Shown here piece after piece: positions 28,553 to 63,050 of a stretch of 64,000 nt of DNA (position 1 is the first letter of the stretch; the number at the start of each line of letters is the position of its first letter). A model generated the notes under the pieces. That model was given only the letters and a program-made list of their open reading frames with translations. It ran no database searches and had not been told where the DNA came from. Made by a program: the position numbers and the translations under genes. Source of the stretch: Planctomycetota bacterium (GTDB lineage: Bacteria > Planctomycetota > UBA1135 > GCA-002686595); the NCBI GenBank assembly GCA_021413885.1, contig JAIOPM010000032.1, forward strand, positions 1-64,000, in the 5' to 3' direction.

Positions 28553-29320
28553 CTAGCGCGTCGTTCGCAGCGAAGCAGGCAAGGCTTGCGTGAGAGCGTC
28601 GCGCGGCGGCGCGAGCTCACGCAGTCCGCGGAGCATCTCCGGGACGTGAGCCAGAACGATCGCGGCGCACAACGCGGCCAGAACCGCGACCTCGGTTCGG
28701 CCGTAGAGCATGCGTCCGTCCTGAGCGACCTGTGAGCACAGGAACTGCGGATCGACCGCGCGTCCGAGACCGTACGCCGACAGCGAGTACGCGGCGACGA
28801 CCCATCCGAATGCCAGCACGACGAAGTAGAGCACCACCGGGCGCTCGATCGCGTGCAGCATCCGACACACCAGCCGCGGCGCGAGCACACCGGTCACGCC
28901 GTAAGCGAGGAGCAGCGCGAATTGGATCGGATCGTCGTCGGCCATGAGATTGCTCGGCCGATGCGTGAGCCCGCGACCGGTCATGTAGCCGAGCCAGCAC
29001 AGCGCGGCCGTCGCGACGAAGAACAACGCGACGCGCGACTGACCGGCGAGGAACGGCGCGCGCGCGAACGAGCGAAGTCTCGACTCGGTCGGCTCGGGTG
29101 CCGCGAAGCGAGGCGTGGAGAAGTCCGTCGCCACCGCGAACGTCGGGTAGGCGAAGGCTCCGCCGAGCGGGAGGCAGCTGAGCAGGGCGAAGTCGAAACC
29201 GAGCACACCACCGGCGAACGAGCCGCCGATCGCGAACCAGGCGAGCCGACTGCGCAACGTGTCGACGGCGCGCGGCACCTCGCGCTCGCGAATCGACGGC
29301 TTGTCGAAGTTCGTCGTCAT
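28553..29320 (-). CDS. Polytopic membrane protein, unknown (Yip1-like topology)
   Basis: The 255-residue product has about six hydrophobic segments: [86 protein letters not shown] and [17 protein letters not shown]. The basic N terminus has no signal cleavage site. No transporter or enzyme motif is visible. It starts only 14 bp from the divergent yjbQ gene and is followed by the lipoprotein gene at 27994-28527 (25 bp). Confidence 0.7.
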
Positions 29321-53596: not shown

Positions 53597-53788
53597 ATGG
53601 GCGTTTCGGTTCAACGGTCGCGCGGCGCGCGCTTCGATCGGCTCACGCTCGTCGGCATGGGGCTCGGCGTCGCAATCCTCTTGCAACCGTGGTGGAGCGG
53701 CGGTTTTCGCGTCGGTTTCTTCGTGACGCTCGCGTCGACGTTGGCGCAGATCGTGGCGGCGCACCTGCCGCGCGGGGCGGACGAGTGA
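53597..53788 (+). CDS. Small two-helix membrane protein at the head of the ATPase operon
   Basis: The 63-residue product has a basic N terminus, then two hydrophobic segments (LTLVGMGLGVAILLQPWW and GFFVTLASTLAQIVAAHL). Its stop overlaps the GTG start of the first ATPase (GTGA). It may be a small auxiliary subunit of the transporter; compare the small DUF2160-type membrane proteins in glycerol ABC operons. Sequence relation to those is not shown. Confidence 0.55.
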   Translation: MGVSVQRSRGARFDRLTLVGMGLGVAILLQPWWSGGFRVGFFVTLASTLAQIVAAHLPRGADE

Positions 53789-54861
53789 GTTTTCTCGCGC
53801 TCGAACGCGTCGAGAAGACGTACCCCAACGGCACGCGCGCCGTGAAGGGCGTCGACCTCGCGATCGAAGAAGGCGAGTTCATCGTGTTGCTCGGTCCGTC
53901 GGGTTGCGGGAAGACGACGACGCTGCGGATGATCGCGGGGCTCGAGCTCGCGACTGGCGGCTCGATCCGGCTCGCAGGCCGCGAAGTGACGCTCGCGAAG
54001 CCTTCGGAGCGCGACGTCGGTTTCGTGTTCCAGTTCTACGCGCTCTACCCGCACCTCGACGTCGCGGCCAACATCGGTTTCCCGCTCGAAGCGACCGGTG
54101 TCGGACGCGCCGAGCGCGAGAAGTTGGTGCGCGAGGTCGCGGAGGAACTCGATCTCTCTCACCTGCTCGCGCGCCGCCCGCGCGAACTCTCCGGCGGCGA
54201 CCAACAACGCGTCGCGCTCGCGCGCGCGATGGTGCGCAAACCCGCGGCGTGGTTGATGGACGAGCCGCTCGGCACGCTCGACGCCGATCGCCGTCTCGAG
54301 ATGTGCGAGTTCGTCCGCGCGCGGCAACTGCGCGCGCGCGTCACCACCGTCTACGTCACGCACGATCAAGAGGAAGCGATGCGCCTCGCCGATCGCGTCG
54401 TCGTGATGTCCGACGGCCTGATCCTGCAGGACGCGCCGCCGCTCGATGTCTACGACGAGCCCGCGTCGCTCTTCGTCGCGCGATTCGTCGGCAGTCCGGG
54501 CATGAACTTCGTCGAGGGCGAGGTGCGTGAGCGCGACGGCACTGTCCGATTTCGTCCGCGCGGCGCGGAGCTCGAGCTCGCGGTCCCGCGCGGCGCGAAG
54601 CCGGGCCCGGCGACGCTCGGCGTGCGCGCCGAGTTCGTCGGCGTCGTGCGCGGCGACGGACGCGCGACGTTACGCGGACGCGTGAAGGTCGACGAGTACT
54701 TGGGCTCGAGCCGCTCGCTGCACGTCGACACGCCGCTCGGCCGCGTCGTCGCGCGCGGCGACGCGGATGCGCCGAGCGCGGTCGGCGAAGAAGTCGGGCT
54801 CGAGCTCGCGCTCGACCACGTCCGCCTCTTTGATCCGGCGAGCGGTCGGAGGCTCGCGTGA
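53785..54861 (+). CDS. ABC transporter ATPase (UgpC/MalK-like), first copy
   Basis: The 358-residue product has Walker A GPSGCGKTT, signature LSGGDQQRVALARAM, Walker B WLMDEPLGTLDA and switch His in VYVTHDQEEAM, then a C-terminal TOBE-like regulatory part (GEVRERDGTVRFRP, TLGVRAEFVGV). Its GTG start overlaps the small membrane protein's stop, and its own stop overlaps the next ATPase (GTGA). It is likely one half of a heterodimeric ATPase for the CUT1 transporter at 42171/48106. Confidence 0.93.
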   Translation: MSFLALERVEKTYPNGTRAVKGVDLAIEEGEFIVLLGPSGCGKTTTLRMIAGLELATGGSIRLAGREVTLAKPSERDVGFVFQFYALYPHLDVAANIGFPLEATGVGRAEREKLVREVAEELDLSHLLARRPRELSGGDQQRVALARAMVRKPAAWLMDEPLGTLDADRRLEMCEFVRARQLRARVTTVYVTHDQEEAMRLADRVVVMSDGLILQDAPPLDVYDEPASLFVARFVGSPGMNFVEGEVRERDGTVRFRPRGAELELAVPRGAKPGPATLGVRAEFVGVVRGDGRATLRGRVKVDEYLGSSRSLHVDTPLGRVVARGDADAPSAVGEEVGLELALDHVRLFDPASGRRLA

Positions 54862-55898
54862 GCCACGCGCTCGAACTGCGCGGCGTCGTCAAACGCTTCG
54901 GCGCGACGACGGCGCTCGACGGCGTCGATCTGGTGCTCGGCGCCGACGAGATCCTGGTCGTGCTCGGGCCGACCGGCGCGGGCAAGACGACGTTGCTGCG
55001 CACGATCGCGGGGCTCGAAGCGCCCGACGAGGGTTCGCTCGTCTTCGCAGGCCGCGACGCGACGCACGCGGCGCCGGCGGAACGCGACATCGCGCTCGTC
55101 TTCCAGAACTTCTCGCTCTACCCGAGCTGGACGGTGCGCGAGAACCTCGCGTTCCCGCTCGGCGCGCCGGGCCGCGCGCTGAATCCGAGCGAGATCGAAG
55201 CCCGCGTGCAAGCCGCCGCCGCGACGCTGCGCATCCCGCACTTGCTCGACCGCGCCGCGCGCCATCTCTCCGGCGGCGAAATGCAACGCGTTGCGATCGG
55301 CCGTGCGATCGTCCGGCGACCGAAGCTCTTCCTGATGGACGAGCCGCTCACCAACCTCGACGCGAAGTTGCGCGAGGCGTTGCGCGTCGAGCTGGTCGAG
55401 CTCGTGCGCTCGCTTCGCCTGCCGATGGTCTACGTCACGCACGATCAAGCGGAGGCGCTCTCGATGGGCGACCGCGTCGCGGTGCTCTCCGCCGGCCGAG
55501 TGCTGCAAGTCGGCGACGCGAAGAGCGTCTACCTCGCGCCCGCGTCGCCGCTGGTCGCGCGCCAACTCGGCTCGCCGCCGATCAACCTCTTCGAAGCGCG
55601 GTGGAGCGACGGTTGGTGGCGCGCGTCGGACGGCGTGCCGCTCGCGCCGGCAGAGCGTCCGAACGCGCTCGCCGCGACGCTCGGCGTGCGGCCCGAGCAC
55701 GTCCTTCCGACCGGCGGCTCGGCTCCAGCGCGCATCGAAGTCGTCGAGGACACCGGGCCGACCCGCGTGCTCCTGGTCGCGTGCGGCGCGAGCCGGTGGC
55801 ACCTCCTGGTCCCGCGGCGTTTCGAAGCGCGCGTCGGCGACGAGCTCCGGCCCCGAATCGACCCGGCGCGGGTCGTCGTCTGGCCGGCGAGCGCCTGA
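54858..55898 (+). CDS. ABC transporter ATPase (MalK-like), second copy
   Basis: The 346-residue product has Walker A GPTGAGKTT, signature LSGGEMQRVAIGRAI, Walker B FLMDEPLTNLDA, switch VYVTHDQAEAL and a TOBE-like C terminus (ATLGVRPEHVLPTGG). All ATPase motifs are intact in both copies, so neither looks inactive. CUT1 transporters usually use one ATPase; two tandem ones recall the GlpS/GlpT pair of glycerol transporters. Confidence 0.92.
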   Translation: MSHALELRGVVKRFGATTALDGVDLVLGADEILVVLGPTGAGKTTLLRTIAGLEAPDEGSLVFAGRDATHAAPAERDIALVFQNFSLYPSWTVRENLAFPLGAPGRALNPSEIEARVQAAAATLRIPHLLDRAARHLSGGEMQRVAIGRAIVRRPKLFLMDEPLTNLDAKLREALRVELVELVRSLRLPMVYVTHDQAEALSMGDRVAVLSAGRVLQVGDAKSVYLAPASPLVARQLGSPPINLFEARWSDGWWRASDGVPLAPAERPNALAATLGVRPEHVLPTGGSAPARIEVVEDTGPTRVLLVACGASRWHLLVPRRFEARVGDELRPRIDPARVVVWPASA

Positions 55899-56076: not shown

Positions 56077-56712
56077 ATGGATCCGCACCAAGTCGACGTC
56101 CCCCACGACGACCTCGTGCAGCACGAGCGTTTCCTCCATGCGCTCGCGCGCAAGCTCGTCCACGACGAAGACCTCGCCAACGACGTCGTGCAGGACACGT
56201 GGCTCGCCGCGCTGCGCCATCCGCCGCGCGCGCGGGAGACGGTGCGCGCTTGGCTCGCGCGCGTCACCTACAACCGCGCGATCCAGTCGTTCCGCACGCG
56301 CGAGCGGCGGGAACGACGCGAGCTCGCGAACGCCCGCCGCGAAGCGTTGCCGTCGCCCACCGAAGACCTGGAACGCGAGCAAGCGCGCGCGTTGGTCGTC
56401 GAAGCGTTGGACGCGACCGACACGACGTACCGCACGGTGCTCTTGCTGCGTTACTACGAAGGCCTCGAGCCGCGCGACATCGCGAAGTTGCTCGACTGTC
56501 CGCTGGAGACCGTGCGCACGCGTCTGAAGCGCGGGCTCGAACATCTCCGCCGCCGCCTCGACCGCACGCGCGGCGGCGATCGCTCGTGGGCCGGAGCCTT
56601 GATGTCGTTGATGCCCGCGAGAGCGAACTCACCCGCGCACACGCCGAAGTTGGACGCCGAACGTCGCGCGCGCGAAGCGAATTGGATCCGCTCGGGCCGC
56701 GTGGCGCGGTAG
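56077..56712 (+). CDS. ECF-type RNA polymerase sigma factor
   Basis: The 211-residue product has sigma region 2 (FLHALARKLVHDEDLANDVVQDTWLAALRHP, then RAWLARVTYNRA) and region 4 (LLLRYYEGLEPRDIAKLLDCPLETVRTRLKRGLEHLRRR). A short tail ends in ARREANWIRSGRVAR. The region-4-to-tail stretch (LDRTRGGDRSWAGALMSLMPARA) resembles the same part of the fused sigma factor 600 bp downstream, so the two are paralogues. It has no membrane helix. No anti-sigma gene is seen. Confidence 0.9.
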   Translation: MDPHQVDVPHDDLVQHERFLHALARKLVHDEDLANDVVQDTWLAALRHPPRARETVRAWLARVTYNRAIQSFRTRERRERRELANARREALPSPTEDLEREQARALVVEALDATDTTYRTVLLLRYYEGLEPRDIAKLLDCPLETVRTRLKRGLEHLRRRLDRTRGGDRSWAGALMSLMPARANSPAHTPKLDAERRAREANWIRSGRVAR

Positions 56713-56718
56713 ACGCGC

Positions 56719-57174
56719 TCAGCGCGAGAGCTTGCGCAGGAGTTCGTCGAGCTCCTGCTGCATGAAGCGGTCGGAGATGTGGAACGCGCCCGGCAGCGGC
56801 TCGAAGATGTTCGCTAGACCGACGACCTGTCCGTCGACGAGGATGGCGAGCGGCCGGTCGACGTTGCGGCCCGTGAAGGCCTCGAACCGACGGGCGTCGT
56901 CGGGTTGAAGCTCGACCACGAGCGTCGGGTTTCCATTCTCGTTCTCCGCCCGGTCGACGCGCTTCGGCGGCGCATCGAACTAGCCCGGCTCGCGAGAGAT
57001 GGTCGCGTTCTGCCGCGCCGCCGCGTAGAACCGATAGGGCCCGTCGCGCGACGACTCCGGCGTGCTCGCGTCGGCCTGGATGCCGAGGGTGATCGGCCGG
57101 TAGACGATCGCGCGCGCGAACCAGGCGAACGCGAGCAGCGTGACGAGCACGAGGACACCGAGGATGTACTTCAC
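56719..57174 (-). pseudogene. SecD-head-like membrane-anchored protein interrupted by an in-frame TAG
   Basis: Reading from GTG 57174, a membrane anchor (KYILGVLVLVTLLAFAWFA) and ~40 further residues end at TAG (56980-56982). In the same frame, without any shift, the next ~85 residues continue as FDAPPKRVDRAENENG... and then PDDARRFEAFTGRNVDRPLAILVDGQ, matching the SecD/SecDF first-head pattern (ARKFAELT...GKPLAIVLDG). The frame keeps high GC at third positions on both sides. So either one gene has gained a stop recently, or UAG is read through, or a base is wrong in the assembly. A GTG at 56919 could restart the second part but has no ribosome site. It lies between two sigma factor genes on the opposite strand. 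Confidence 0.7.
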
Positions 57175-57270
57175 TGCGGAACGACGCCGAACGGCGGATC
57201 CGATTGAACCACCCGCTCCCCGACCGGCGATACTGGGAAGTCGGGACGAAGAGAGCCGTCTCGACACCTG

Positions 57271-60200
57271 ATGGAACTCGAACCCACGCCGGGTCGCAGC
57301 CCCCTCGACGCAATTCTCGCCGAGGAAGGGTTCATCCGGGCGTTGGCGAAGAAGCTCGCGCGCGACGACGAGGTGGCGAACGATGTGTTCCAGGACACGC
57401 TGCTCGCGGCGATGAAGCGGCCCGCGAGGCCCGACGTGCCGGTCCGCTCGTGGATCGTGCGCGTGATCCACAACCGCGTCGCGCAGAGTCATCGCCGGCG
57501 CGTGCGACGCGAGCAACACGAAGCGTTGCACGAGCCCGAGCACGCCGACCTCTCGCCCGCGGAAACGGCGGAACGCGACGGCCTGCGCGTCCACGTCTTG
57601 CGCGCGATCGAGGAGATGGACGAGCCGTATCGCTCCGCGATCGTGCTGCGTTTCTACGAGGACCTCGAACCGCGCCAAATGGCGGAACGCCTCGGCGTGC
57701 CGGTCGAGACGGCGCGCACGCGCGTCAAGCGAGCGCTCGCTCAACTGCGCGCGCGCCTCGATCGCGAGTACCGCGGCGACACCGCGCGTTGGGCGACGGC
57801 GTTGTGGATGTGGACGTTGCCGGCGCGCAGCGGAATCGTCGCGGCGCCGACGGGAACGAGCGGTGCGCGTTGGGCGAGCGGACTCGTCGCGGTGATCGGC
57901 TGCGCGCTGCTCGCGTGGTTCCTGCGTTCGCGCGTCGAGCCGCCGAACGAGGACGTCGCGTCGGTGTCGGGCGTCGAGAGCCGCGCGACGGAGCTCGCGC
58001 CGGCCGCGAGTCCATCGAGCGGGTCTGAGCGCGCGCAAGATCCGCCGCAAGCGCTTCCTGCCGTCGTATTGCGCGTCGTTCGCCGCGACGACGGCGGCGC
58101 GGTCGCCGGAGCGCGCGTGCGTGCGCGCGACGCGGACGGACTCGAACGCTCGACCGATACAGCCGGCGCCGCGACTTTGCCGTGGCCGATCGACCGCGAG
58201 CTCGACGTCGAGATCGACGCGACGGAGAGCACGCTCGCGAGCCGGGCGCATCTCGCTCCGGCCGAGCGCGCGACGCTCGCAGGTCCGTGGACGATCACGG
58301 TCGAAGGCTCGAGCGAAGTCGCGGGCCGCGCGATCGATCGTTTCGGCCAGGCTGTCGCGCTCGCGAACGTCACGGTCTTCGCGCTCGACGACGAAGACGA
58401 GCCCGATCTCGTCGCGCCCGTGCTCGCGAGCACGACCAGCGACCGCACCGGTCGCTTCCAGTTCGATCACTTGCCGCGCCGCTTCGCCCTCGCGGTCGAG
58501 AGCCCCGAGCGCGTCGCCGCCGACCTGTGGCTCGCGAGCTTTTCTCGCGCGCGCAAGCTCGACGGGCTCGAGCTGGTCCTCGACGATCCCGCGCCCGTCG
58601 CCGGCACCGTGCAGGACGGCGACGGCAACGCGATCGCCGGCGCGAAGCTGACGTTCGCGCGCGTGCGCGGCGACGCCGACTTGCGCTCGAGCGCGTTCGC
58701 CGAAACTTGGTTCCGCGCGCGCGACGAGTTCGAGGCGGAGAGCGAGTACGACGGCCGCTTCGAGCTCGCGCGCCTGCCCCGCGGTCGTTATCGACTGACG
58801 TTGCGCAAGGACGGACTCGCGACGTTGACGCGCAGCGTGCTCGCGCCCGACTCCGCGGTCGCGATCGAGTTGGAGAGCGCGATCGCGACCGAGTTCGTTG
58901 TCGCCGACTCCGCGGGCGAGGCGGTCGCGGGAGCGCGCGCGACCTTGCGTCACTCGGCGAGCTCGAAGCGCGGGCTCGGCGGCGGCGAGCAGCACGCGAC
59001 GTCCGACGCCGAAGGTCGCATCGTCGCGAGCGGCGCGGGCGCGGAGACGTCGGTGTGGCTGCACCTCGACGCGGCCGGCTTCGCGAGCGCGCTCTACGGT
59101 CCGTTCGACGTGTCGAACGACGCTCCGACGCGGCGAGTCGCGCTCGACGTCGGACGCACGCTCGACGGCAGCGTCCGCGACGAGTCGGGCGCGCCGCTCG
59201 CGGGCGTGCTCGTCCTCGCGCGCGCGGTCGCGGCGACCGCGGACCTCGAGGACTTCGGCTTCGGCCATCAGCACGCGTTCTTCGAGCTCGCGCGCACGCG
59301 CGCCGACGCGAACGGCGAGTTCCGTTTCGACGCGTTGACGCGCGAGGACGTCGAGCTCGAGGTGCTGCCGGCCGAACGCGCCGCGCCGATCCTCGCCCAA
59401 GTCGTGCCGCGCGGCGCGGAGCGCGCGGACCTCGTCCTGCGCTCGACGCGCGCCGGCGGCGTCACGTTGGTCGGTCGCGTCACCGCGCGCATCGGCGGCA
59501 CGGCGCTCGAAGACTTCACCGTCAGCGCGTTGCCGAGCGACACGCCCGAGCGTTCGAGCCGCGTCACGACGCACGCCACGCGCTCGGACGGCCGCTTCCG
59601 ACTCGAGCTCGATTCGAGCGGCGATTGGATCGTCACCGCGAGCGCACCCGGCTGCGCGAGCGAGTCGCGCGTCCTGCTCGGCGTCGAGTCCGGCGTGCGC
59701 ACGTTGGTCTTCGAGCTCGCGCGCGCGCGCACGCTCGACGTCCGCGTCGTCGACGCGCGCGGTCGACCGGTGCCGTACGCGACGTTGGCGATCAGCGACG
59801 ACGAGGATCGGCCGGTCGCGGTCGCGCTCGCCGCCCATGAACGGCGCAGCGCGTTGCAGGTCGGACCGCGCGGCGAAGCGCGCCTCGTCGACGTGCCCGC
59901 AGATCGCATCCACGTCGACGTCACGACGCCGTTCCTGCGCGAGGCGACGCGTTTCGAACTCGAGCTCGCGCAAGATGCGTCCGAGTCGCGCACGTTGGTG
60001 CTCGAGCAACACGACGTCGAGCTCCCCCGCCGCCGCCTCGCGTTCGCCGTCGTCGCGGCGGAAGGCGAGACGAGCGCGTTGCAGCTCGGAGCTCCGCCGT
60101 CGGATGCGAAGGCGTGGACCGGTCACGTCGCGCTGGGCGTGCGCGACGCGGCGGGCCGCGTGCAGCTCTCGTTCGCAGGCTGGTTCGAGAACGGGCGTCT

Positions 60201-60480
60201 GCGCTCCGACGCGAATCGTCAGGCGCTCTACGTCGTCGACGGCGAGTTGGGCGCGGTCGACAACGCGTGGACGCAGGAGCTGCGGCCCAACTGGGGCGCC
60301 GCGTTCGGTCGCGATTTCTTCGGGGCGACGTCGCCGTGCGACGCGCTGCCGATTCCGGCGAGCGGAGCCGCGGTCGAGCTCGAACTCGAAGGCGGCGAGG
60401 TTCTGCGCCTCGACCTGCCGGACGACGACGGCTCGCGCGCGGTGGCGGTCTTCGCCGCGCTCGCGACGCCAACGCGTTGA
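57271..60480 (+). CDS. ECF sigma factor fused to a membrane helix and long carboxypeptidase-regulatory-like repeats
   Basis: The 1069-residue product begins with an ECF sigma factor: region 2 (FIRALAKKLARDDEVANDVFQDTLLAAMKRP, then VRSWIVRVIHNRVAQSH) and region 4 (IVLRFYEDLEPRQMAERLGVPVETARTRVKRALAQLRARL). One transmembrane helix (~206-224, GLVAVIGCALLAWFL) follows. A ~840-residue part then contains about seven Ig-like/carboxypeptidase-regulatory-like units with the phrase G(A/V)xVxDxxGxxVxGAxV (for example VRRDDGGAVAGARVRARDADG, GTVQDGDGNAIAGAKLTF, GSVRDESGAPLAGVLVLARA). The C terminus is a beta domain of unknown type. If the sigma part is cytoplasmic, the repeats lie outside, and release by proteolysis would be needed. 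ECF factors with C-terminal extensions are known in planctomycetes; this arrangement is one of the clearest signalling fusions in the window. Confidence 0.9.
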   Translation: MELEPTPGRSPLDAILAEEGFIRALAKKLARDDEVANDVFQDTLLAAMKRPARPDVPVRSWIVRVIHNRVAQSHRRRVRREQHEALHEPEHADLSPAETAERDGLRVHVLRAIEEMDEPYRSAIVLRFYEDLEPRQMAERLGVPVETARTRVKRALAQLRARLDREYRGDTARWATALWMWTLPARSGIVAAPTGTSGARWASGLVAVIGCALLAWFLRSRVEPPNEDVASVSGVESRATELAPAASPSSGSERAQDPPQALPAVVLRVVRRDDGGAVAGARVRARDADGLERSTDTAGAATLPWPIDRELDVEIDATESTLASRAHLAPAERATLAGPWTITVEGSSEVAGRAIDRFGQAVALANVTVFALDDEDEPDLVAPVLASTTSDRTGRFQFDHLPRRFALAVESPERVAADLWLASFSRARKLDGLELVLDDPAPVAGTVQDGDGNAIAGAKLTFARVRGDADLRSSAFAETWFRARDEFEAESEYDGRFELARLPRGRYRLTLRKDGLATLTRSVLAPDSAVAIELESAIATEFVVADSAGEAVAGARATLRHSASSKRGLGGGEQHATSDAEGRIVASGAGAETSVWLHLDAAGFASALYGPFDVSNDAPTRRVALDVGRTLDGSVRDESGAPLAGVLVLARAVAATADLEDFGFGHQHAFFELARTRADANGEFRFDALTREDVELEVLPAERAAPILAQVVPRGAERADLVLRSTRAGGVTLVGRVTARIGGTALEDFTVSALPSDTPERSSRVTTHATRSDGRFRLELDSSGDWIVTASAPGCASESRVLLGVESGVRTLVFELARARTLDVRVVDARGRPVPYATLAISDDEDRPVAVALAAHERRSALQVGPRGEARLVDVPADRIHVDVTTPFLREATRFELELAQDASESRTLVLEQHDVELPRRRLAFAVVAAEGETSALQLGAPPSDAKAWTGHVALGVRDAAGRVQLSFAGWFENGRLRSDANRQALYVVDGELGAVDNAWTQELRPNWGAAFGRDFFGATSPCDALPIPASGAAVELELEGGEVLRLDLPDDDGSRAVAVFAALATPTR

Positions 60481-60525: not shown

Positions 60526-61833
60526 GTGTCCGCACTCTCGCAAACTCCCGACGGCCGCCGCGTTCGCCGTTGGCCCCGGATCCTCGCGCTGCAGCTCCTG
60601 GTCTGGCCGCTCGCGCTCGTGGTCGGCGAGTTGGGGTTGCGCGGCATGCTCGCGGTGCGCGGCACGCCCTACGCGGCCGAGGTGACGCTCGAGACGCTTG
60701 CCTCCTTGCAGAAGCAGAACCGCGACTTCGTGCCGCGGCCCAACTCCGACCTGCCGTGGAATCCCGCGGAGTCCGAGCGCGCCGAGCGCGTGCTCCATCC
60801 GTACGTCGGCTTCGACATCGTCGGCGGGCTCGAACTGCTCGACGATCAGATCCGCCAGATCCAAGCAGCCCCGGTGGGCGAGAAGCACTTCCGCATCGCG
60901 CTGTTCGGCGGCTCGGTCGCGCAGATGTTCGGCGACCTCGGCGTGCCGACGCTCCAGAAGCTGCTCGAGGCCGATCCGCGCTTCGAAGGCGTGCGGATCG
61001 ATTTCCTCTCGTTCGCGCGCGGCGGTTTCCGTCAGCCCCAGTTGCAAGCGTTCCTCGGCTACTTGTTCTCGCTCGGCATCGCGCCGAACGCGGTGATCTG
61101 CCTCGACGGCTTCAACGAAGTCGCGATCGGCAAGCAGAACGCGGTGCTCGGCACGCACGTGTCGTTCCCGTCGGTGCCGCACTGGGCGCAACTCGTCGCG
61201 CGCGGAACCGACAGCCCGAAGGCGATCACGGTCGCGGCGACCGTGCGCTCGCTGCAGAAGGAACTCGACGCGTTCACCGCGTGGGCGCTGGAGTCCGGCG
61301 TCGAGAAGAGCGCGATCACGGGCAAGCTCGCGTTGCTCCACGCCGCGCGCCTGCGTCGCCGTTGCCAAGCGGGCTTCATCGAGTACACCCAGTTGTTGCG
61401 CTCGCCGCAGTTGCGCCGCGCGCTCGCCGGGCCGGTGCTGGCGACCGACGGCGCCGATCCCGTCGCGATCTCGGTCGCGTTGTGGCGTGAGTCGTCGCGC
61501 AACATGCGCGCGCTCTGCGAAGCGCGCGGCATCGTCTACTTCCACGCGTTGCAGCCGACGCTGCACGACGAAGGCGCGAAGCCGATGGATTCGCACGAGG
61601 TCCGCAACGGCCGGATCGACGCCGATTGGCTCGTCGGCGTGCGCACCGGCTATCCGGCGATGCGTGCGGCGGGCAAGGAGCTCGCGGCCGAAGGCGAGCA
61701 CTTCTTCGACGCGTCGCGCATCTTCGAGCACGTCACCGCGCCGCTGTACGACGACGCGTGCCACTTCAACGCGGACGGCAACGTGTTGCTCGCCGAAGCG
61801 CTCGGCCCGGAATTCCTGAAGGCGCTGCCGTGA
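60526..61833 (+). CDS. Membrane-anchored SGNH-hydrolase-like protein
   Basis: The 435-residue product has an N-terminal membrane helix (ILALQLLVWPLALVVGELGL). The SGNH-type core has the nucleophile region RIALFGGSVAQMFGD (Ser ~128), a GFNE motif (LDGFNEVAIGKQ) that could serve as the Asn block, and the C-terminal DDACHFNADGN with a DxxH-like Asp/His pair. Family members remove or transfer acyl groups from polysaccharides. The GTG start at 60526 follows the fused sigma gene by 45 bp. Translationally coupled to the next gene. Confidence 0.8.
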   Translation: MSALSQTPDGRRVRRWPRILALQLLVWPLALVVGELGLRGMLAVRGTPYAAEVTLETLASLQKQNRDFVPRPNSDLPWNPAESERAERVLHPYVGFDIVGGLELLDDQIRQIQAAPVGEKHFRIALFGGSVAQMFGDLGVPTLQKLLEADPRFEGVRIDFLSFARGGFRQPQLQAFLGYLFSLGIAPNAVICLDGFNEVAIGKQNAVLGTHVSFPSVPHWAQLVARGTDSPKAITVAATVRSLQKELDAFTAWALESGVEKSAITGKLALLHAARLRRRCQAGFIEYTQLLRSPQLRRALAGPVLATDGADPVAISVALWRESSRNMRALCEARGIVYFHALQPTLHDEGAKPMDSHEVRNGRIDADWLVGVRTGYPAMRAAGKELAAEGEHFFDASRIFEHVTAPLYDDACHFNADGNVLLAEALGPEFLKALP

Positions 61834-63050
61834 GCGACACGACGTCGAACGGTCGCCGCTTCTTCGAGCGTTGGCTCTTCTGGCCCGGCGCGCTGCTCTT
61901 GGTGCTCGTCGGCCTCGAGCTCGGCTACCGCGTGCAGCGCATCCTCGGCGGAAAGCCGTACCTCGATCGCCAAGCGAAGAGCCGCGTCGCGCTCCTCGAC
62001 CAGGAGAACGCGCGGATCATCCACGCGCACGAGGAGAGCGCGGGCCGAGTCACCGGCGCCGACGACGAGCTGCTGCCGCATCCGTACCTCGGGCTCGTCG
62101 CGCGCGGAACGTTGCGCACGCTCGAACGCGCGGTCGATGCGATGCGCGAGCCCGGCGAGACGCGCGTCGACGTCGTCTTGGTCGGCGGCGGCGCGACGCG
62201 CATCTTCCCGGTCGCGCGAGAGAGCCTGATCGACGCGCTCTCGAAGACTCCCGCGTTCGCCGATCGCAAGATCGTGTTGTGGAACTTCGCCGAGGAATCG
62301 ACGAAGGCGCCGCAACAGCTCGAGCTCCTGCTCTACCTGACCGCGCTCGGCGTCGCGCCCGATCTCGTGATCGACATCGCGGGCCGCAACGAGATCATGA
62401 TCGGTTGCGCCAACGCGCTCGCCGACACGCATCCGGTCTACCCCGTTCGCAAGAAGTGGGAGCCGCTGGTCTTCGGCGGTGGGACCGATCGCATCTCGAT
62501 CGACTTCCTGGTGAAGACGTGGACCGCCGGGCTCGAGATCGACGAGATCATCCGCCACTTGAACGCCGGCGGCATCCATTGCGCGCTGTGGGCGAGCGGC
62601 GCGATCGAGCGCGTCGAGACCCTCGCGATCGATCGCGACCTCGCGTTGAACAGCTATCGCCGTCGTTCCGAAGCGTCGCGTCGCCAGATCGTGTTGCGCG
62701 GTCCGTCGCCGCCCGTGGGGCCGAAGCTGACGCTCAACGCCAGCGCGACCGCGTGGTACCAAGCGACGCGCGACCTCGGCGCGGTGTGCGCGGCGCGGCA
62801 CATTCGTTTCGTCTCGGTGCTCGAACCGTTCGGCGAGAACGCGGTGCCCGGAGCGGAGGACGAACCCGACGAGAGCGAGAAGATCGGTCTGCCGCACGCG
62901 CGCCGCGTGTTGGTGACCGCGGCGTCGGGACTGGTCGCCGCGGGCGTGACGTGGATCGACGCGGCCACGGTCGTGCCGGAGAAGGCGACGCCGAAGGAAG
63001 CGGCATTGCTGCTGGTCGCCGAGATCGCGCGTCGGCTCGGCGCACCGTAA
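61830..63050 (+). CDS. Membrane-anchored SGNH-like protein lacking catalytic residues
   Basis: The 406-residue product has an N-terminal helix (PGALLLVLVGLELGYRV) and is a paralogue of the preceding protein (VDVVLVGGGATRIFP against FRIALFGGSVAQMFG; LDIAGRNEIMIG-like Asn motif). The Ser of GGS is replaced by Gly, and the C-terminal Asp/His pair is missing (TWIDAATVVPEKATPKEAALL). It is probably a pseudoenzyme partner or regulator. Its GTG start overlaps the preceding stop (GTGA). Confidence 0.75.
   Translation: MSDTTSNGRRFFERWLFWPGALLLVLVGLELGYRVQRILGGKPYLDRQAKSRVALLDQENARIIHAHEESAGRVTGADDELLPHPYLGLVARGTLRTLERAVDAMREPGETRVDVVLVGGGATRIFPVARESLIDALSKTPAFADRKIVLWNFAEESTKAPQQLELLLYLTALGVAPDLVIDIAGRNEIMIGCANALADTHPVYPVRKKWEPLVFGGGTDRISIDFLVKTWTAGLEIDEIIRHLNAGGIHCALWASGAIERVETLAIDRDLALNSYRRRSEASRRQIVLRGPSPPVGPKLTLNASATAWYQATRDLGAVCAARHIRFVSVLEPFGENAVPGAEDEPDESEKIGLPHARRVLVTAASGLVAAGVTWIDAATVVPEKATPKEAALLLVAEIARRLGAP

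Follow-up and report, generated by a model that had tools for sequence, protein, structure and literature searches.

A gene in the analysed stretch of planctomycete DNA (64,000 nucleotides, referred to as the window) encodes an ECF σ factor, a predicted membrane helix and a long ectodomain in a single uninterrupted frame of 1069 aa, from ATG to stop (57271..60480; features are on the + strand unless marked otherwise). We consider it rather probable that the product is a one-protein transmembrane transducer whose σ domain is held at the membrane and released by proteolysis. A search of related genomes for the same fusion, proposed in a preliminary description of this DNA, revealed a large, mostly planctomycete family.

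Domain anatomy and the membrane helix

The σ part of the window protein consists of region 2 (aa 20-79, 57328..57507; Pfam PF04542, Sigma70_r2, 35.4 bits, cut-off 24) and region 4 (aa 109-159, 57595..57747; PF08281, Sigma70_r4_2, 45.1 bits, cut-off 25.7). The presence of these two regions without region 1 or 3 is the composition of an ECF σ70 factor, and the TIGR02937 (sigma70-ECF) model matched the protein with 79.6 bits against a cut-off of 42.9; among the matches listed, no NCBIfam subfamily cut-off was reached. The best structural matches of the σ domain are ECF structures, and it is close to polymerase-bound ECFs. In an AlphaFold model of aa 1-264 built from 62 relatives, σ helices with pLDDT >90 are followed by two further helices and then by disorder. 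The first of these helices is a short juxtamembrane one (aa 171-182, TARWATALWMWT, 57781..57816), whose W..AL pattern is seen repeatedly across the family alignment; the second is the predicted membrane helix (aa 199-221, 57865..57933; KD 1.73). Beyond it lies a disordered, fast evolving linker (aa 222-262, 57934..58056; pLDDT <50), with ω of 0.89 between the orthologues at loci L162 and L169, which come from two other Planctomycetota genomes, NC_groundwater_1804 and SJ175.

The ectodomain gave 141.6 bits with the CarboxypepD_reg model (PF13620; cut-off 32.3, E 1e-41), in several stretches. Seven β-sandwich units of the CarboxypepD_reg/Cna-B-like type are predicted (aa ~263-911, 58057..60003; ~264-911 in the full-length model, where the C-terminus is uncertain). 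In structure comparison, the nearest solved folds come from extracellular proteins: pilins and adhesins of the Cna-B type, and macroglobulin domains. The C-terminal region (aa 912-1069, 60004..60477) was modelled with low confidence, and its aa 961-1069 are 67% identical in one orthologue. Pfam found no WD40, FecR or zinc-finger (ZAS) match in the window protein. The anatomy proposed from the sequence at the outset, a complete ECF σ factor (regions 2 and 4) followed by a single membrane helix and some seven ectodomain units, thus stands: the models returned the σ fold, one helix and several β-sandwiches, seven in the full-length model, and the helix recurs at its position in relatives.

By itself, the hydropathy of the window helix is not significant: the local segment, when shuffled, scored as high 573 times in 20000, and the whole protein 292 times in 500. 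The helix is convincing because its position recurs in relatives, not through its own hydropathy. All ECF open reading frames of at least 680 aa in the same genome (18/18) have a helix at aa ~183-240, whereas the short ECFs have none, except for two family members that are damaged or cut, L047 and L058. A helix is also present in 75/75 non-redundant hold-out relatives. We rely on these two comparisons; a count of 129/129 helices in the family was dropped as circular, the rows having been pre-filtered for a helix. The end of region 4 and the helix are separated by about 35-37 aa (about 37 in the median family member). In 92 family members, versus 13, the more positive helix flank is the cytoplasmic side, mainly because the outer flank is acidic. 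This charge bias fits an N-in helix, the topology that we infer.

The preliminary description had joined sensor, anti-σ and σ roles in one chain. The anatomy of a tethered σ factor supports this in part, and the cytoplasmic anti-σ domain falls away: Pfam found no such domain in the window protein, and the roughly 35 aa that separate region 4 from the helix could not accommodate a known one. If the σ factor is indeed inhibited, the cause must be the tethering itself or the short helix next to the membrane.

Proposed mechanism and known systems

In the mechanism that we favour, the N-terminal ECF σ factor would lie in the cytoplasm, about 35 residues before a single N-in helix, and the disordered linker with the rod of seven β-sandwiches would reach the periplasm or cell surface as a sensor arm. 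While joined to the membrane, the σ domain would be kept away from RNA polymerase. When the ectodomain receives a signal or is damaged, the disordered linker (aa 222-262, a candidate site-1 cleavage region) would be cut first and the helix next, the second cut most likely being made by an RseP-like site-2 protease. The freed σ factor would activate its regulon, of which its own operon is probably a part. Roughly half of the relatives, the window gene not being among them, would also make a σ-less twin of helix and ectodomain from an internal start. The fixed distance between region 4 and the helix across the family speaks for a transducer, and the only moderate hydrophobicity of the window helix speaks against it.

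A precedent is IutY of Pseudomonas putida, a σ/anti-σ hybrid (ECF243) with σ, helix and periplasmic domain in one chain (PMC5411451, PMC8999054). Prc trims its periplasmic part to about 50 residues, RseP then releases the σ factor, and variants with about 50 periplasmic residues require RseP only (PMC5411451); the disordered stub of the window protein has about 40 residues. Like IutY, the window protein combines a cytoplasmic ECF σ factor, a single helix soon after region 4 and a regulatory part outside, with no space for a separate cytoplasmic anti-σ domain. The layout of σ, short linker, single helix and outside domain is therefore that of the IutY type, but the FecR/CSS-type domain is missing. 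IutY itself differs from the window family in its size (374 aa), its FecR-type periplasmic domain and its partner, a TonB-dependent outer-membrane receptor, whereas the window family has CarboxypepD_reg repeats, tens of paralogues and often an internal start.

Two other sets of extended ECFs are relevant. ECF48, ECF52 and ECF53 of Actinobacteria (SCO4117) carry C-terminal helices and an outside sensory part, and their proteolytic activation has been proposed (PMC8999054). Unlike the window protein, they have a zinc-finger anti-σ domain before the helix and extensions to about 400 aa; the ZAS domain found between σ and helix in the ECF52/ECF53 type is absent here. ECF57 and the WD40-fused ECFs of Gemmataceae are planctomycete σ factors with long C-terminal β-repeat extensions (PMC8999054, PMC8567305). 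Their WD40 repeats, proposed to act by protein interaction, set them apart from the window protein, which has a helix and CarboxypepD_reg sandwiches instead. Fusions of σ and helix (IutY; ECF48, ECF52, ECF53) and planctomycete ECFs extended by WD40 repeats are, then, already known. A literature search that had the main ECF classification papers outside its reach returned no paper joining planctomycetes, σ factors and CarboxypepD_reg, and none on membrane-tethered σ factors by that name; the family may already carry a group number in the main ECF classification. The apparently new features are the kind of ectodomain, the extent to which the family has expanded, a likely second origin of the fusion and the conserved internal start.

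ToxR and CadC are membrane-bound activators, and the σ domain could likewise work while bound to the membrane, through a change in conformation or clustering that recruits polymerase with no cleavage at all. Such a mode would agree with the fact that we identified no conserved cleavage motif or dedicated protease. The preliminary description had suggested a search for a co-occurring site-2 protease, but this check lent no support to release: it is not discriminating, because M50 (site-2) proteases were found in every genome searched, namely in 20/20 genomes with or without the family (five of them without family matches at the threshold of the same-order search) and in 14/14 controls. That M50 proteases are not specific to family carriers, and that the linker of about 35 aa is kept in length, can both be counted for activity at the membrane. 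On the other hand, IutY, the only σ-helix fusion that has been studied experimentally, needs Prc and RseP (PMC5411451), and a σ factor has to travel with polymerase to promoters chromosome-wide. We therefore regard activity without cleavage as unlikely and keep proteolytic release as the preferred reading. Taken as a whole, the original interpretation was borne out for the anatomy and the tethered σ factor, and by far more than one gene, and received no backing from the anti-σ domain and protease searches.

A probable internal translation start in relatives

Methionine is strongly enriched 2 to 6 residues ahead of the helix in the family; it is part of a motif G-x-x-x-[M/V]-x-x-K, and GGAG stands at Shine-Dalgarno distance. 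Of the 64 pre-helix ATGs in the discovery set, 36 had a Shine-Dalgarno-like match, versus 11.5 ± 2.3 after synonymous recoding, while other internal ATGs of the same genes served as control and gave 110 matches where 111.5 were expected. For a hold-out, 100 further genes were reduced to 75 that share no more than 60% identity with the discovery set or among themselves, and the picture was the same: 38/60 pre-helix ATGs had a match versus 13.0 ± 2.3 expected, a number that 0 of 1000 recodings reached. GTG-coded valines showed 11/24 matches versus 3.3 ± 1.4, valines with other codons 6/33 versus 5.1 and ATGs elsewhere 31/215 versus 32.7. There was a weak excess at other leucine codons (11/57 versus 6.5; 2 of 300 recodings as high), which we attribute to start codons close by. 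Across the 199 genes pooled, the glycine exactly four codons before the pre-helix ATG or GTG is encoded by GGA in 83/109 cases, compared with 22% for other glycines of the same stretch and 14% in the ectodomain. A 16S tail matching the Shine-Dalgarno sequence is present in the genome of the window, while few Shine-Dalgarno sites accompany the ordinary starts predicted nearby.

The internal ribosome site is thus under nucleotide-level selection. The whole signature, an internal Shine-Dalgarno sequence and an ATG or GTG before the helix, occurs in 100/199 family genes; the window gene and the orthologues at L162 and L169 do not have it. Since a mere fossil of gene fusion would have decayed at synonymous sites, relatives with the signature probably also make a σ-less product of helix and ectodomain. 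The preliminary description treated the protein as one chain, a view that separate expression of the 3′ part would weaken. The window gene, having no internal start, conforms to it, but about half of the family genes have a separate start for the 3′ part, which comes close to that situation.

The internal starts show that the ectodomain also has a σ-free job, and for this reason signalling may not be its main role. It could be mainly a structural or adhesive envelope protein made for the most part from the internal start, with the σ form as a minor reporter of how its own ectodomain is assembled or damaged. The conserved ribosome-binding site and start before the helix in 100/199 genes would suit such a role, as would folds like those of pilins and adhesins. 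However, the window gene and its orthologues do without the internal start, σ is better conserved than the ectodomain, and the numbers and diversity of paralogues look receptor-like. We find this explanation improbable and retain the transducer.

Family, origins and split forms

Besides the window gene's orthologues, the fusion is widespread. Its own genome has 18 intact genes with σ, helix and ectodomain out of 71 ECF (Sigma70_r2) matches; at E<=0.001, σ regions 2 and 4 matched 18/18 of them and CarboxypepD_reg 17/18. The ectodomain is 390-960 aa long in most family members. A search with a σ-plus-helix model found relatives in 25 of 31 same-order genomes and none in the other six, with 20-odd copies per genome within the genus and 52 matches in one genome (G004). 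Across the phylum, relatives were present in 62 of 294 sampled genomes (E <= 1e-40). A scan of named genomes was made with a four-row alignment (alignment A1 had no conserved stretch); the cultured, completely sequenced Pla86 and Pla163 gave 25 and 8 family matches. All matches in named genomes were in Planctomycetota, apart from two MAGs labelled Myxococcota. These two, L152 (Myxococcales, one copy) and L163 (Kofleriaceae, 16 matches), carry the same fusion nested among planctomycete sequences, and L163 has an internal GGAG-ATG; transfer or mis-binning would account for them, and the MAG labels may be wrong.

The family is divergent, with a median N-terminal identity of 37%, which might suggest that the σ domain has lost its polymerase function and is only a DNA-binding or anchoring module. 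The matches of regions 2 and 4 in every one of the genome's own paralogues, the close match to polymerase-bound ECFs and ω of about 0 to 0.05 make this very improbable.

The fused σ domains fall into one supported group (98/94) of a maximum-likelihood tree, together with a few untethered members. One of them is encoded in the window just ahead of the long gene: an ECF σ factor of 211 aa (56077..56712; Pfam, tree) that groups with the window σ domain (96/94) inside the fused group, keeps the juxtamembrane W..AL motif and has no helix or ectodomain. It has most likely lost its tether, and it is kept beside the tethered gene in L162 and L169. A second untethered σ factor inside the fused group, L030 (C56:1688-1879 region), is likely another such loss. 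A second pair of fused ECFs (L013 and L168; 100/99) lies well apart from the main group and looks like an independent origin of the fusion. The ECF of the window's genome that is nearest to this pair (L056; moderate support, 86/83) is a σ factor of 201 aa whose gene has an ATGA overlap with a gene for a helix and five CarboxypepD_reg stretches. The same ectodomain type thus also occurs in a classical set of σ factor and membrane partner, which is two proteins where the window device is one; we take this locus as a split, two-gene form of the same device and as the best clue to function. FecR was suspected by eye in the L056 partner protein, and no Pfam match was found at E 0.1. Among the neighbours of the paralogues, no Pfam family recurs in more than 3 of 71, and no anti-σ family recurs among the Pfam matches of neighbouring genes.

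To our knowledge, many planctomycete ECF σ factors carry extensions that have not been explained, and the sensors described for them are comparatively few. We suggest, tentatively, that planctomycetes run one-protein σ receptors, some 20 to 50 in each genome of several lineages, and that about half of these genes also make a σ-less twin, which would tune the receptor through competition for a ligand, a partner or a protease. With tens of copies per genome, σ factors serving as their own receptors would amount to an entire layer of signalling in the phylum; the untethered sister σ factor beside the window gene would then be a second way of splitting both functions. The conserved internal start would be a nucleotide-level sign of two nested proteins, invisible to protein annotation alone.

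The window locus and integrity of the gene

Full-length orthologues at L162 and L169 show 59% identity over about 1070 aa, and the order of genes is shared: two ABC ATPases, a short ECF, the long ECF and a downstream gene. The two ATPases are of the MalK type (53785..55898; 80-82% identity), and the short ECF is 77-81% identical. The first downstream gene (435 aa, 60526..61830) begins 45 bp after the σ gene, is 66% identical to its counterpart in L169 and has no Pfam match; the second (406 aa, 61830..63047), a paralogue of the first without a significant Pfam match, is 55% identical in L169, and L162 stops short of it. By eye only, both look SGNH-hydrolase-like; the Pfam search found no SGNH domain in them.

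Between L162 and L169, ω is 0.05 for σ region 2, 0.00 for region 4 and 0.17 for the ectodomain. Both ends of the gene are thus under purifying selection as protein, and σ is the better conserved part. The full-length orthologues in two other genomes exclude a frameshift joining two genes, and no σ70-type promoter match was found inside the window gene that would indicate independent transcription of its 3′ part. An artefact, whether a sequencing frameshift that merged two genes or a pseudogene in decay, can be dismissed: the same assembly does contain frameshifted family members (L034, L047), but the orthologues with the same neighbours, the purifying selection and the many intact relatives across the phylum refute it.

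A promoter-like element, TTGAACC-N17-CGATACT (57204..57234), lies 30 to 60 bp upstream of the long gene and is conserved in the two orthologous loci. It has one exact match in the genome; its core TGAACC..CGATA also occurs in the L162, L169 and G001 genomes, mostly before relatives of the window gene, and no similar element was found before paralogues in the window's own genome. An attempt to derive a regulon was dropped, the element standing essentially only before the window gene and its relatives. Its GAACC and CGAT halves resemble ECF promoters, so autoregulation, or control by the sister σ factor, is possible.

Between the two σ genes, there is a small gene related to the SecDF P1 head (window 56713-57170, −) with an in-frame stop. 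It is intact in L162 (PF22599, E 1.3e-13) and seems truncated in L169; the gene seems to be decaying.

Three damaged or cut family members were noted in the window's assembly. L047 (C25:2164-4757) appears frameshifted after the helix and L034 (C39, σ at 28706-28897) inside σ, in each case through real damage or an assembly error. The protein of L058 (C61:1-714) is identical to that of L047 from where region 4 ends as far as the contig extends, while their σ parts have diverged, which points to gene conversion or an assembly join.
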